NCBI GenBank assembly: GCA_026929865.2 | Contig: CM049403.1 | Coordinates: forward strand, 21,893,501-21,957,500 | Length of the DNA: 64,000 nucleotides | Reading direction: 5' to 3' | Origin: Hyperoplus lanceolatus | Taxonomy: Eukaryota > Chordata > Actinopteri > Uranoscopiformes > Ammodytidae | Part shown: positions 167 to 59,231 of the stretch, piece after piece | Layout: each line of letters starts with the position of its first letter | Position numbering within the stretch: position 1 is the stretch's first letter | Program-made: the position numbers and the translations under genes | Notes under the pieces: model-generated | Told to the model about the DNA's origin: nothing | The model's input: the letters and a program-made list of their open reading frames with translations, nothing else | Database searches by the model: none

Positions 167-10613
<10,447 letters not shown>

Positions 10614-16880: not shown

Positions 16881-30541
<13,661 letters not shown>

Positions 30542-34190: not shown

Positions 34191-37181
34191 TCAGGGAGAA
34201 GAAGAAGAAGGAGGAGAAGGTGGTGGTTCTAATGAAGTTGTGACTGTTATGTTGTATTTGCCGCCTGTTCCTTCTTCTCTTTCCTCCGGGCCCAGGGTGC
34301 TGCCCAGGGAGGAGCGTGTGAACCTGCGGATGGTGCTGTTGAAAGATGCGTGGCTCATGAAGGAGTCCCGGGACCAGTCGAGGCGGGGGTTGATCCTCTT
34401 GAGGACCGCCCTCCGAAACAGGATGTACACCCACGGGTCCAGGATCTGGTTCCAGGTGGCGAATCGGATCCAGAGCAGCAGGTATTTGATCTGGGTAGGA
34501 CCTCCTGACAGCACAGTTTTTGCAATGAAGACCTGTTGGTGTGGGGGGCGGGGGGGTGATTAAAGTGGGTATATGGATAGAGAAACAGTGAGATAAAGCA
34601 TAGTAAGAGGCAAAGAGAGGAAATAAAATTATGCGGGGAAGAGATGTGGAGGATGGATGGAATGAAAATGGAATGGGGGTTTTTGCAGAGAGAAAGTTGT
34701 AGGGAAAACAAAGAGAGGGAAATGACAAGACAACACATTTTAGTGGAAAAAGAATGGGGAAGGAAAGATTAGTCATAAGGAATGAGAGGGAAAATATTGA
34801 ATGTGTTAATAATGCTAATTTACAATGACACACATATATCATTGTTTAGTCCACCAAGGGAGAGGCTGAGATCATTTTGACACGGCCCTCCTGAGGCAGT
34901 GGCTGCTGCAACACAATTATCTCCCCCCTGCTTAACTCAAGCAGCAGCATTTTATGTGAGGCATAGCCTTATTAACATTGGCCCAACCGTCTGTTGTGGG
35001 GGCAAACCGTGTTAACAAGCTCCTTCAGGAATGACAAATTGGCTTATTGTTGTCTCTGTTCCAAATTCAGCTGGTCACAGAAAAAAAAACTGCTCGTGTG
35101 TTTTACATGCAAGCAGTGCAAGCAAAACTGTTCAAAAACTCCACTCAATAGTTTTATACAATGGTTGCGTCTTGCATGTCTTGTCTTGCAAGTGTTTAAT
35201 TCCAAACTATTTTTCAATCGCAGATATACTGTATGCTCCAGAAACTGAAATAACAAAGTAGGGAAGGTGAGGAGATATTCATTGATTTCGGGGGTAAAAA
35301 GTGTTTTTGACAACAGGCATTTTCCAGAATGGCTGACTCCACCTTTAACACAATAAAACCACATTCTGCAGTTTATTAAGTTATCAGGGTTTTGATGGGA
35401 AATCAGTTGTGTAAGTTCCAGTCAGAGATTTGAAATCAGGCACATGCAGGGGCAGTGAACAGTCAAAGGCCTGGAACTTTTTAAGCCTAATGTTTATTAA
35501 GTTAGGAATGGAATGAAGCAAAATCAGCAGCAAAACAAAGATGGAACACTGGACGCATTATGAAGCACGCAACCAATGATACTTTGAGCAAATGGGTAAT
35601 GGTTTGGAAGCTGCAAGGCATTGGGTAAGATGTGACGTAAAAATAATGAGTCCATCCATGGGTTTCATTGTCAGATGATCAGAACATGCTGAGGTAGCCA
35701 GCCAAAACAGCACAACGTTATGATGGGGGTGAGCAGTTCCTATTAGGAAGCTGTGTTATGGTGACAGCATTAAGACAATCTGGTTTTTACTCGCCTTATT
35801 CGAGACACTTGACACATGATGTATATCCAGGGGTCAAATATCTGATTCCAAGTAGCCATGCGTATGTAGGACAAAATAATTTCATCTCTTACGGGCTCAG
35901 CAGTCACCACGTTCATCAGAATATGTATCTGCGCAGGGTGTCACACAATTGAGGTTAGACAGGACTACAAAATATGTATTTGAAGTGGCTTTGACCCTTC
36001 TATTCCTTTCTCTAATGCGCCGTCCAATGTGCTGACACACAAACGTTACGTTGTAGAACGTAATAGAAAGTGGTATGGGTTGAGTGCTTTAATATAACTT
36101 TGATGGACACCATTACTCGAAGTGCTTTGCATTACCATGGCTGACTGTGTTTTTTCAACTTCTTGATCCTTATTTATTTTTTTGCCAAAGTTGAGTCTAT
36201 TCAATCACACATTTTTAAGATTTTTTTCACTCGTGCAAATGTATTGAATGCGCTCTGAAGTCCTCCATCAGTGCTCGCTAACGCAGTAGCCTAATATGCA
36301 TTTCATTGGAGCTTAATCATTTTCTATAAGACCACAACTAAACATTACATACACACACACTGTATATGTTTGGACATACTCACCAAGAGGGGGCACCAGC
36401 ATATAGAAGCGATGACCATGATGAGGATGAGCTGAACCATCATCTCTATTTCGTGGTCTCGGCGGCGCCGGTTCCCTCCCTGTCCGCAGCACACTTTGAT
36501 CAGGGTCACAACGCTCACCGTGTTCAGCACAAAAGACACGGCGATGCATGTCAGCCCCACAGCAGAGAAGAGCAGGCAGAAGGCCATGTCGTTTCCCTTG
36601 TGGCTAATGTTGAAAAAACACCAGGAGCCGGGAAAGTACATGTGGTAGCTCCCAACGCCCGCCAGGGGCAGCAAAGCTATGGAGCCAGCGATTAACCACA
36701 CCATTAGCACCATGGACACTGTCCGCCTCTTGGGCATACTGGAGGAGCGTGCGAACGGAAGATTGATCCCAACGAAGCGCTCCAAGGCCATGGTGGCACC
36801 CAGCATCAGCGGGCAAAGTCCGTAGAAGACCATGGACATGCCCATGAAGTTGCAGAAGTGGCAGTTTGGATCCAACTGCCGCCAATTAAAGCTGGTCACA
36901 TAGAAGGAGATGACGATGGAGCCCGTGACCAGTAGACCCATGAAGTCAGTAACCACCAGGCCACCGAGGAAGATCATGAAGAAGGAACGTGAGCGAACAT
37001 TTTTCTGCCGGAAAGACTTGATGAGAACTATGAAGGCAATCAAGTTAGAGGCGAGACCCAAGGTGGTGAAGATGGATGAGAATTTGACTGAGGTGATGGA
37101 GGGTATGAACTTGAATGGAGGGCTGTTGATGGAATAACAGAGTGGGGTGTAGTTGGCGAGTGGCAGGGCTGAGTCATTCAT
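34191..37181 (-). CDS. tbxa2r: Thromboxane A2 receptor (prostanoid TP receptor, class A GPCR)
   Basis: There are two coding exons, 37181-36384 (266 codons, TM1 to the end of TM6) and 34532-34191 (113 codons plus stop), joined in phase 0 to give 379 residues. Human TP isoforms are 343 and 407. TP couples mainly to Gq and drives platelet and smooth-muscle responses to thromboxane A2. Visible features are N-glycosylation sites at N2 and N10, TM2 [10 protein letters not shown], the prostanoid ERF motif (134-136) in place of DRY, ECL2 [15 protein letters not shown] with a disulfide Cys at 188, TM6 [20 protein letters not shown], the TM7 ligand-contact Arg at 289, and [14 protein letters not shown]. 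The C-tail is Ser/Thr-rich and ends PPSSSSP. TM2, ECL2 and TM6 fit TP better than FP or EP1. The intron after TM6 is the conserved prostanoid-receptor intron. Tail-to-tail placement with gipc3 matches human 19p13.3. An alternative last exon lies in the intron. Confidence 0.93.
34533..35769 (-). other. tbxa2r intron segment between the two terminal exons
   Basis: This contains the minus-strand AATAAA signals at 35493-35498 and 35372-35377 that could end transcripts using the alternative exon. I see no mobile element. Confidence 0.5.
35770..35928 (-). CDS. tbxa2r: Alternative/duplicated TM7-encoding terminal exon of tbxa2r
   Basis: On the minus strand, the acceptor CCTGCGCAG is followed in phase 0 (the phase left by the first coding exon) by a 52-codon open frame and TAA. 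It begins [16 protein letters not shown] and contains [20 protein letters not shown]. It ends with a basic tail, [11 protein letters not shown]. Joined to residue 266, its Arg falls at residue 289 and its DPW at 298-300, exactly as in the normal exon, with no indel. The rest differs strongly: the ECL3 half is unlike, and the C-tail stops at residue 318 without the Ser/Thr-rich region. Minus-strand AATAAA occurs at 35493-35498, about 270 bp past the stop. The product would be a TP variant with changed ECL3/TM7 and little tail. It could instead be an unexpressed remnant of a tandem duplicate, but the intact frame and spacing argue against simple decay. Confidence 0.7.
   Translation of the reverse strand: MHILMNVVTAEPVRDEIILSYIRMATWNQIFDPWIYIMCQVSRIRRVKTRLS
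35929..36383 (-). other. tbxa2r intron segment before the alternative exon
   Basis: This 455-bp segment separates the TM1-6 exon donor (CTCTTG|GTGAGT) from the alternative exon acceptor. Reading through the donor adds only about 12 codons before a stop. Confidence 0.6.
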
Positions 37182-56031: not shown

Positions 56032-56631
56032 ATGGTTCAAAAAGACCCTATGGAAAATCACCAAAGAGGAGGAGAGACCCTGCCCGGAGGAAGCCCGGGG
56101 CCCCCGTCTGGAGCCAGGCCCAGAAAGGGGGCCCGCCTGCGAGCGTCTGGTGGCCGGGTCTGCCACGGGGCCCGGCCGGGCACAGCCCGAAGAAGCTACG
56201 TGGCACCAACCCCCTCTATGACCGATGGGCCCACCACTCGTCGGAGGAACCGCTGGGGTCGGGTGCGCTGCCTAAAGGGTGGCAGTGAAGGGCGGGGACC
56301 ACAACGGACCAGACCCGGGCGGCAGAGGCTGGCTTTGGGGACGTGGAACGTCACCTCGCTGTGGGGGAAGGAGCTGGAACTGGTGCGGGAGGTGGAGCGC
56401 TACCAATTAGACCTGGTGGGGCTTACCTCCACGCACAGTCTTGGCTCTGGAACCGTACTTCTGGACAGGGGTTGGACTCTATTCTTCTCTGGAGTTGCCC
56501 AAGGTGTGAGGCGCCGGGCCGGTGTGGGGATACTCACGAGCCCCCGGCTGGGCGCTACTATGTTAGAGTTTACCCCGGTGGACGAGAGGGTCGCCTCCCT
56601 ACGCCTCCGGGTTGTGGGGGGAAGACTCTGA
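56032..56631 (+). pseudogene. LINE endonuclease, N-terminal part (frame 1, before the frameshift)
   Basis: An open frame of 199 codons. Its first ~100 residues are Arg/Pro/Gly-rich and may be leader sequence. From about residue 104 the apurinic endonuclease domain begins with GTWNVTSLW. It continues through [15 protein letters not shown] and [13 protein letters not shown]. It closes at TGA directly after a run of six G at about 56,614-56,621, where the reading frame shifts relative to the rest of the polyprotein. Confidence 0.75.
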
Positions 56632-59231
56632 CTGTTGTTTGTGCGTACGCACCGAACAGCAGTTCGGAGTATTCGGCCTTCTTGGAGACCCTGAACGGAG
56701 TCCTGCATGGGGCTCCGGTAGGGGACTCCATAGTTCTGCTGGGAGACTTTAATGCGCACGTGGGCAATGATGGAGACACCTGGAAAGGCGTGATTGGGAG
56801 GAACGGCCTCCCCGATCTGAACCCGAGTGGTCGTTTGTTGTTAGACTTCTGTGCTGGTCATGGTTTGTCTATAACGAACACCATGTTCGAACATAAGGAT
56901 GCTCATAAGTGTACATGGTACCAGAGCACCCTAGGCCGAAGGTCGATGATCGATTTCGTGATCGTTTCATCTGATCTGAGGCCGCATGTTTCGGACACTC
57001 GGGTGAAGAGAGGGGCGGAGCTGTCAACTGATCACCATCTGGTTGTGAGTTGGGTCAAAGGGTGGGGGAAGACTCTGGACAGACCTGGTAAGCCCAAACG
57101 GGTAGTGCGGGTGAACTGGGAACGTCTGGCGGAGGCCCCTGTTCAAGAGATCTTTAATTCGCACCTCCTGCAGAGCTTTTCTAGCATCCCTGTGGAGGTT
57201 GGGGGCATTGAACCCGAGTGGTCGATGTTCAAAACTTCCATTGCTGAAGCCGCGGCAGACAGCTGTGGTCTCAAGGTCTTAGGTGCCTCAAGGGGCGGTA
57301 ACCCTCGAACGCCGTGGTGGACCTCGGTGGTCAGGGAAGCCGTCCGACTGAAGAAGGAGTGCTTCCGGGATATGTTATCTCGGGGGACTCCTGAGGCAGT
57401 TGCAAGGTACCGACAGGCCCGAAGGGCTGCAGCTTCTGCCGTGACCGAGGCAAAGCAGCGGGTGTGGGAGAAGTTCGGAGAAACCATGGAGAAGGACTTT
57501 CGGTCGGCACCAAAGTGTTTCTGGAAGACCGTCCGGCACCTCAGGAGGGGGAAGCGGGGAACCATCCAAGCTGTGTACAGTCAGGATGGGACGCTGTTGA
57601 CCTCAACTGAGGAGGTAGTCGGTCGGTGGAAAGAGCACTTTGAGGAACTCCTGAATCCGACTAACACGCCCTCTATGTTGGAGGCAGAGCTGGAGGCTGA
57701 TGGGGGATCATCGTCAATTTCCCTGGTGGAAGTCACTGAGGTAGTCAAACAACTCCACAGTGGCAAAGCCCCGGGGGTTGATGAGATCCGTCCAGAAATG
57801 CTGAAAGCAATGGGTGTGGAGGGGCTGTCTTGGATGACACGCCTCTTCAACATTGCGTGGAAGTCGGGTACAGTGCCGAAGGAGTGGCAGACCGGGGTGG
57901 TGGTTCCTATTTTCAAAAAGGGGGACCAGAGAGTGTGTTCCAACTACCGGGGTATCACACTTCTCAGCCTTCCCGGCAAAGTCTACTCCAAGGTGCTGGA
58001 AAGGAGGGTTCGGCCAATAGTCGAACCTCAGATTGAAGAGGAACAATGCGGATTCCGTCCTGGCCGTGGAACAACGGACCAGCTCTTCACTCTCGCAAGG
58101 ATCCTAGAGGGAGCTTGGGAGTTTGCTCATCCAGTCTACATGTGTTTTGTAGATCTGGAGAAGGCTTATGACCGGGTTCCCCGGGAGATACTGTGGGGGG
58201 TGCTGCGGGAGTATGGGGTGAGGGTGTCTCTTCTGAGGGCCATCCAATCTCTGTACACTCAAAGCGAGAGCTGTGTACGGGTTCTCGGTAGTAAGTCAGA
58301 CCTGTTTCCGGTGGGGGTTGGCCTCCGCCAGGGCTGCGCTTTATCACCAATCCTGTTTGTGATATTCATGGACAGGATATCAAGGCGTAGTCGTGGTGGG
58401 GAGGGGTTGCAGTTTGGTGGGCTGAAGATCTCATCTCTGCTGTTTGCGGATGATGTGGTTCTGATGGCATCATCGGCCTGTGACCTTCAGCTCTCATTGG
58501 ATCGGTTTGCAGCCGAGTGTGAAGCGGTTGGGATGAGGATCAGTACCTCTAAATCTGAGGCCATGGTGCTCAGCAGGAAACCGATGGATTGTCTACTACA
58601 GGTAGGGAATGAGTCCTTACCCCAAGTGAAGGAGTTTAAGTACCTCGGGGTCTTGTTTGCGAGTGAGGGAACAATGGAGCGTGAGATTGGCCGTAGAATC
58701 GGAGCAGCAGGGGCGGTTTTGCACTCGCTTTACCGCACTGTTGTGACGAAAAGAGAGCTGAGTCGTAAGGCAAAGCTTTCGATCTACCGGGCGATCTTTG
58801 TTCCTACCCTCACCTATGGTCATGAAGGCTGGGTAATGACCGAAAGAACGAGATCGCGGGTACAAGCGGCCGAAATGGGCTTTCTCAGGAGAGTGGCTGG
58901 CGTCTCCCTTAGAGATAGGGTGAGAAGCTCAGTCATTCGTGAGGAACTCGGGGCAGAGCCGCTACTCCTTTGCGTTGAAAGGAGCCAGTTGAGGTGGTTC
59001 GGGCATCTGGTAAGGATGCCCCCAGGGCGCCTCCCTAGGGAGGTGTTCCAGGAGCGTCCAGCTGGAAGGAGGCCTCGGGGAAGACCCAGGACTAGGTGGA
59101 GAGATTATATCTCCACACTGGCCTGGGAACGCCTCGGGATCCCCCAGTCAGAGCTGGTTGATGTGGCCCGGGAAAGAGAAGTTTGGGGTTCCCTGCTCAA
59201 GCTGCTGCCCCCGCGACCCGATTTCGGATAA
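56343..59231 (+). pseudogene. LINE endonuclease C-terminal half plus reverse transcriptase (frame 3)
   Basis: A 962-codon open frame. The first ~90 codons are out of frame with the endonuclease; genuine protein starts near residue 92 with [15 protein letters not shown]. Endonuclease motifs GDFNAHVG and STDHHLVV follow. The reverse transcriptase shows PIFKKGD...[43 protein letters not shown] and the catalytic FADD at about 701-704 (LLFADDVVL). The C-terminal region has a [15 protein letters not shown] motif. Apart from the frame change near 56,620, the frame is uninterrupted to its stop, so the copy is young. It acts in target-primed reverse transcription in the family; this copy is probably non-autonomous because the endonuclease is split. 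Confidence 0.85.

Follow-up and report, generated by a model that had tools for sequence, protein, structure and literature searches.

The thromboxane (TP) receptor gene of this fish carries a second intact exon for TM7 and helix 8, located between the exon for TM1-6 and the normal last exon. We read it as a tandem copy of the TP TM7/helix-8 exon, made long ago, that could serve as an alternative last exon, and put the probability of this reading at roughly 0.6. The window analysed is the whole 64,000-nucleotide stretch (C9:21893501-21957500), with the TP receptor gene on its minus strand.

The gene and its two TM7/helix-8 exons

The gene is a fish thromboxane (TP) receptor, and the identity given in the preliminary description is thereby borne out. 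Pfam 7tm_1 matches the TM1-6 exon (E=1.3e-22), and when this exon is joined to the second exon the top solved relative is human TP (E=1.2e-84), followed by FP (7.4e-60). The coordinates of the coding exons and of the candidate processing signals are collected in Table 1.

Table 1. Features of the TP receptor gene, in window coordinates
Feature	Position	Strand	Description
TM1-6 coding exon, TP (tbxa2r-like) receptor	36384..37181	-	266 codons from ATG; donor TTG/gtgagt, phase 0
Putative branch site CTAAC and acceptor ..CGCAG of second exon	35929..35958	-	consensus and crude-matrix score
Second TM7/helix-8 exon	35770..35928	-	52 codons and TAA (35772-35770), phase 0
Two AATAAA poly(A) signals	35372..35498 (35498-35493; 35377-35372)	-	consensus match only
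Normal last exon: TM7, helix 8, Ser/Thr-rich C-tail	34191..34532	-	113 codons and TGA; human TP E=1.3e-14

The second exon had been described beforehand as an intact 52-codon terminal exon lying between the TM1-6 exon and the normal last exon, and this is what we find: an AG acceptor (35930-35929) is followed by 52 sense codons and a TAA, in phase 0. None of the marks of a pseudogene (stops, frameshifts or a lost splice site) was seen in it. Compared on its own with solved chains (PDB sequences), the exon matched human TP at E=1.9e-8, FP at 7.9e-6 and EP1 at 6.6e-5; its closest solved prostanoid receptor is thus human TP, as would be expected of a TP TM7 exon. A six-frame search of the 807-Mb, 527-contig genome returned the normal TP exon as its top non-self match (E=1.7e-7), and then the FP exon (9.2e-6). 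A chance open frame is ruled out by the E-values for human TP and for the normal exon in the whole genome. Two neighbouring homologous exons of equal phase in one gene constitute a tandem duplicated exon. Pfam models gave no score to either TM7 exon on its own, and their silence is therefore uninformative.

The two exons align with 0 indels. Because 266 codons precede the junction and the Arg occupies position 23 in the exon, this Arg is residue 289 in both forms, with DPW at 298-300, as had been claimed. The accompanying statement that the second exon is identical to the normal one and free of indels holds for register, motif and gaps, but not for the sequence, in which 20/52 residues are identical. 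Identity is distributed unevenly: 3/16 over residues 1-16, 14/22 over residues 17-38 (12/16 within 23-38), and 3/14 over residues 39-52, which make up helix 8. What the earlier interpretation says of the gene, of a duplicated exon and its phase, and of a lost phosphorylatable tail stands; that fish make two receptor forms is a possibility. The copy is old and strongly diverged.

A GIPC family gene exon was also found in the window, at 16899-17180 on the plus strand (GIPC1 E=5e-17; GH1 domain of GIPC1-3). TBXA2R and GIPC3 presumably adjoin in human 19p13.3, and the presence of a GIPC exon in the window is consistent with that synteny.

Divergence, constraint and processing signals

Silent sites between the second and the normal exon are saturated (pS 0.84 over all codons), 12/20 of the codons that specify the same residue differ, and codons 19-38 give a dS of 2.3 and a dN of 0.24. 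Codon positions 1, 2 and 3 differ at 27, 18 and 35 of 52 sites, respectively, position 2 being the least changed. Differences between the two exons concentrate in columns that are variable among ten other rows (p=0.0055). Where ten other exons are invariant (11 columns, with the second exon left out), the second exon keeps the residue in 8/11, the three broken columns being changes of L to F, L to M and R to Q. Its residue recurs in at least one other row at 24/31 positions, fewer than for any of the other rows (25-30).

Neutral drift was simulated with 4000 draws per point under K80, at an assumed 0.1 indels per substitution. When drift started from the normal exon, 0/4000 draws at 1.0 substitutions/site (the third-position scale, indels uncounted) had both an open frame and at least 12/16 core residues, and about 4 in 4000 did so at 0.5/site; the overall identity of 20/52, taken alone, is compatible with 0.5 neutral substitutions/site (simulated mean 21.0). 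As an open frame and a TM7 core together rarely survive drift, the second exon has probably been under constraint for most of its history. A self-written codon model was fitted to ten fish exons, with w=1 tested on the second exon's branch. It rejected w=1 with 34 codons (2dlnL 5.31, p=0.021) and, with 40 codons, on two topologies (2dlnL 5.57, p 0.018; 2dlnL 8.08, p 0.0045), in a test that is weak inasmuch as it does not reject w=1 on the normal TP and FP exons, whose function is beyond doubt (p 0.87 and 0.70). The background w was not rejected on the second exon's branch. A third topology gave 2dlnL 48.1, which we do not count because its w=1 fit came to a halt with a branch length at an extreme, apparently through failed optimisation. 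Free branch lengths ran from 23 to the bound of 60, and are therefore not meaningful.

Constraint in the past may have been followed by a late loss. The exon would then be recently dead: through most of its existence it would have served as an alternative last exon, and it would now be unspliced in the species, stops and indels not yet having gathered in it. Its long branch and its three broken invariant positions speak for such a history, as does its GC3 of 0.46, which lies near the intron GC of 0.38-0.41 (GC3 is 0.74 in the TM1-6 exon and 0.66 in the normal exon). The simulation also leaves some room for it: drift from today's second exon gave an open and indel-free exon in 11% of draws at 0.1 substitutions/site, 4% at 0.15, 1.5% at 0.2 and ~0.01% at 0.5, so that ~0.1-0.15 neutral substitutions/site are permitted. 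However, no damage is seen in the frame, the acceptor, the branch site or the stop, and the reading requires the present to be a special moment; we judge it unlikely.

The TM1-6 donor scores 8.6 and is the top donor of 37300-34000, whereas the best donor in or after the second exon (35928 to 34533) scores 5.2. This argues for a terminal exon and makes a poison cassette, or an in-frame insertion ahead of the normal exon, unlikely. Upstream of the exon, the CTAAC consensus puts the branch A at 35955, 26 nt from the acceptor's last G and with no AG in between. The acceptor had been called proper; it has this branch site, but its pyrimidine tract is moderate (10/16, against the normal exon's 12/16). 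Scored with a crude matrix, the acceptors of the second and the normal exon reach 3.82 and 4.37 and rank 12 and 10 among 82 intron AGs (11 score above the second exon's), so neither is conspicuous. The AATAAA that had been noted about 270 bp downstream is found at 35498, 272 bases past the second exon's stop; another lies 393 bases past it and is followed by a GT-rich stretch, TGTGGTTTTATTGTGTT. AATAAA/ATTAAA occur elsewhere in the intron too, and acceptor, stop and poly(A) signals alike are consensus matches only.

The second exon, possibly terminal and followed by poly(A) signals before the normal exon is reached, could also be a regulatory decoy, the inclusion of which ends transcription early or yields an unstable message and so lowers TP output, the protein being irrelevant. 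Early polyadenylation is a known means of tuning genes, which counts for this reading. A decoy would not, however, need the retained TM7 core or the signals of constraint, and its operation as a poison cassette is disfavoured by the donor scores given above. We hold it to be quite improbable.

Predicted receptor forms and their known counterparts

If the duplicate is used as an alternative last exon, splicing of 36384 to 35928 and cleavage near the poly(A) signals at 35.5-35.35 kb would produce a 318-residue receptor (266+52) that keeps the TM7 ligand and switch residues, differs in ECL3 and helix 8, and ends directly after helix 8. Skipping of the second exon would give a 379-residue receptor (266+113) with a Ser/Thr-rich tail. 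We infer that the second exon would be used in mRNA, and that the resulting form would bind thromboxane but desensitise and couple differently.

Residues are numbered as in human TP by alignment, Arg 7.40 being R295. According to PMC13039517, R295 7.40 holds the agonist carboxylate, T298 7.43 contacts the agonist ring in simulations, Q301 7.46 may serve as a switch, the Ala mutant of N300 7.45 is inactive, and the activation motif runs from D304 7.49 to Y308 7.53. R7.40, T7.43, N7.45, Q7.46 and D7.49PxxY, to which that paper assigns these roles, are all present in the second exon. The preliminary description had the two forms differ in "ligand-gating TM7/ECL3"; this stands for ECL3, but since the reported ligand and switch residues of TM7 are retained, the exons differ less there than in ECL3, at 292/296/303 and in helix 8. 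With Ser at 292, Met at 296 and Phe at 303, the second exon changes lipid-facing TM7 positions, which PMC13039517 lists in a cholesterol cavity arising on closure of the TM1/TM7 gap.

In its helix 8, the second exon replaces F311 7.56 by Cys, R312 8.47 by Gln and R313 8.48 by Val, and leaves R317 8.52 unchanged. In the active state R312 fastens helix 8 to TM7 and R313 pairs with E242 6.32 (PMC13039517); E242 6.32 is present in this fish's TM6 segment. Arg 8.47 is invariant in the ten other exons compared and, with Gln in its place, the usual working of helix 8 is not claimed for the second exon. The exon stops right after helix 8, at the equivalent of residue 324, and has no C-tail, in agreement with the loss of the phosphorylatable tail that had been claimed for the second form. 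We predict that this form keeps ligand binding, with altered helix-8 coupling and basal activity and with weak arrestin-type desensitisation. A wider proposal, which we make tentatively and rate somewhat below even, is that two TP receptors arise in fish from a single gene through mutually exclusive homologous TM7/helix-8 exons: the second would share the ligand anchor, would differ in ECL3 and in the face by which the ligand enters, would lack both the helix-8 latch (R8.47, R8.48) and the phosphorylatable tail, and would be a natural desensitisation-resistant or biased receptor, its ratio to the other set by splicing and poly(A) choice.

Should the second exon be used, nature itself would have exchanged the TM7/helix-8 unit of a drug-target receptor while leaving the ligand site as it was. 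What the helix-8 arginines and the C-tail contribute to TP activation and desensitisation could then be tested directly, a role for these arginines having recently been proposed from structures (PMC13039517). A prostanoid receptor would also join the genes in which duplicated terminal exons serve for tuning.

Splicing gives rise to human TP-alpha and TP-beta, and the FP variant hFPS and a rat EP1 splice variant diverge from their receptors at the intron after TM6. The human TBXA2R forms are likewise two C-terminal forms of one TP gene, but they have the first 328 residues in common, and what sets them apart is confined to the tail that follows helix 8 (PMC13039517). The fish forms would instead diverge beyond residue 266, owing to a second homologous exon, so that ECL3, TM7 and helix 8 would differ. 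hFPS and the rat EP1 variant (PMC3477067, PMC7509579) resemble the fish case in being splice forms of prostanoid receptors whose TM7 region is altered; hFPS, however, is described there as a six-TM, functionally inactive form, whereas the fish second exon encodes a homologous, complete TM7 and helix 8. The Drosophila octopamine receptor forms OAMB-K3 and OAMB-AS belong to an insect amine receptor, and there the last exon is swapped from the third cytoplasmic loop on, before TM6 (PMC2650798).

Homologous neighbouring exons that are spliced one for another are known as tandem duplicated exon substitution (PMC9741552). Among human tandem duplicated exon events, 77/236 swap C-terminal regions, with bony fish orthologs for >90% (PMC9741552); the main text of that paper, whose gene tables are in its supplements, has 0 occurrences of "GPCR". 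By the anatomy of its exons, the fish TP case would fit the class with tandem duplicated C-terminal exons. Titles and abstracts of open-licence PMC papers, among the matches listed, contained no duplicated TM7 exon in TP and no fish TP splice form, which is no proof of novelty.

Origin of the duplicate and the other receptor loci

The simplest origin of the second exon is duplication within the gene. A tree was built from 40 columns and 12 rows, comprising the fish's own TM7 exons and human TP and FP segments; the row labels FP, EP1 and EP3 were confirmed on their TM1-6 exons, and EP4 and the remaining fish receptor rows carry presumptive labels. This tree puts the second exon with fish and human TP at 91/88, a value that is not starred, for a branch flagged as long and its place as unsure. 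The end branch of the second exon measures 2.37 changes per column and that of the normal exon 0.45, a difference of about fivefold. Duplication before and after the fish-tetrapod split received the same support (p-AU 0.48 each way). As traces of the event in the flanks, only 9-10-base matches were seen in the stretches compared.

The exon might instead derive from another prostanoid receptor, FP or EP1-like, and have been copied into the TP intron. Neither the FP placement (p 0.11) nor the EP1-like placement (p 0.25) is rejected by the AU test, and by plain similarity over 34 columns these exons are as close to the second exon as TP is: residues in common number 16 with fish FP, 18 with the EP1-like exon, 16 with normal TP and 17 with human TP, and the BLOSUM62 sum is best for fish FP (108), followed by human TP and the EP1-like exon (102 each) and normal TP (97). 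The second exon moreover begins IH.., a start that it shares with this fish's inferred FP exon and with one of its EP1-like exons. Against such a transfer, the best tree unites it with TP despite the long branch and unsure place, the E-values rank TP first, and it sits, in phase, inside the TP gene. Two features noted by eye are also confined to TP, namely an aromatic residue two before the Arg (Tyr in the second exon and human TP, Trp in the normal exon, Gly/Ala/Val in the other rows) and Arg-Leu at the end of helix 8 (the second exon and TP only, among the rows compared). We rate an origin outside TP as very improbable.

The search with TM1-6 gave 13 matches besides TP, of which two weak ones (L030, L031) were excluded on inspection as probable other GPCRs, leaving 11 prostanoid-like loci; the next match after TP itself is 40% identical. 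Matches to three TM7 query exons were assigned to these loci by coordinates and by eye. A second TM7 exon was seen in none of them: 10/11 had one TM7 match and the locus on C4 had none, and only TP had two. Two weak TM7 matches fit no receptor, one at C18:9030348 (one stop, E 0.83) and one TM7-exon-like match on the plus strand at C19:26782729-26782860 (E 1.1), with no TM1-6 partner among the matches listed. Neither the second exon nor TM1-6 had relatives in viral and prokaryote collections, as expected.

No second TP gene was seen in the genome, the DNA search returning the locus itself and a repeat among the 40 candidates scored of 1853. This repeat portion lies in the intron, from about 35360 to 35244, and the same 40 candidates include 39 further genome places that are 81-89% identical. 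For some 15 of the 39, by a visual count, a partner on the opposite strand lies within ~400 bases, an arrangement like that of a short inverted-repeat transposon; no inverted partner of the 35244-35360 repeat was seen in window positions 34900-35420. Elsewhere in the window, a non-LTR retrotransposon occupies 56289-59231 on the plus strand, with a 980-residue open frame that has endonuclease and reverse transcriptase domains, and a long CA/GT microsatellite at 3200-3500 was noticed in the open-frame translations. Four prostanoid receptor loci (FP, EP3, TP and one further) lie on one chromosome, C9, at 13.96, 19.42, 21.93 and 24.13 Mb. A third gene with EP1 as its best solved relative is located at C16:1.18 Mb (L023/L006), the others being on C5 and at C16:9.2 Mb.
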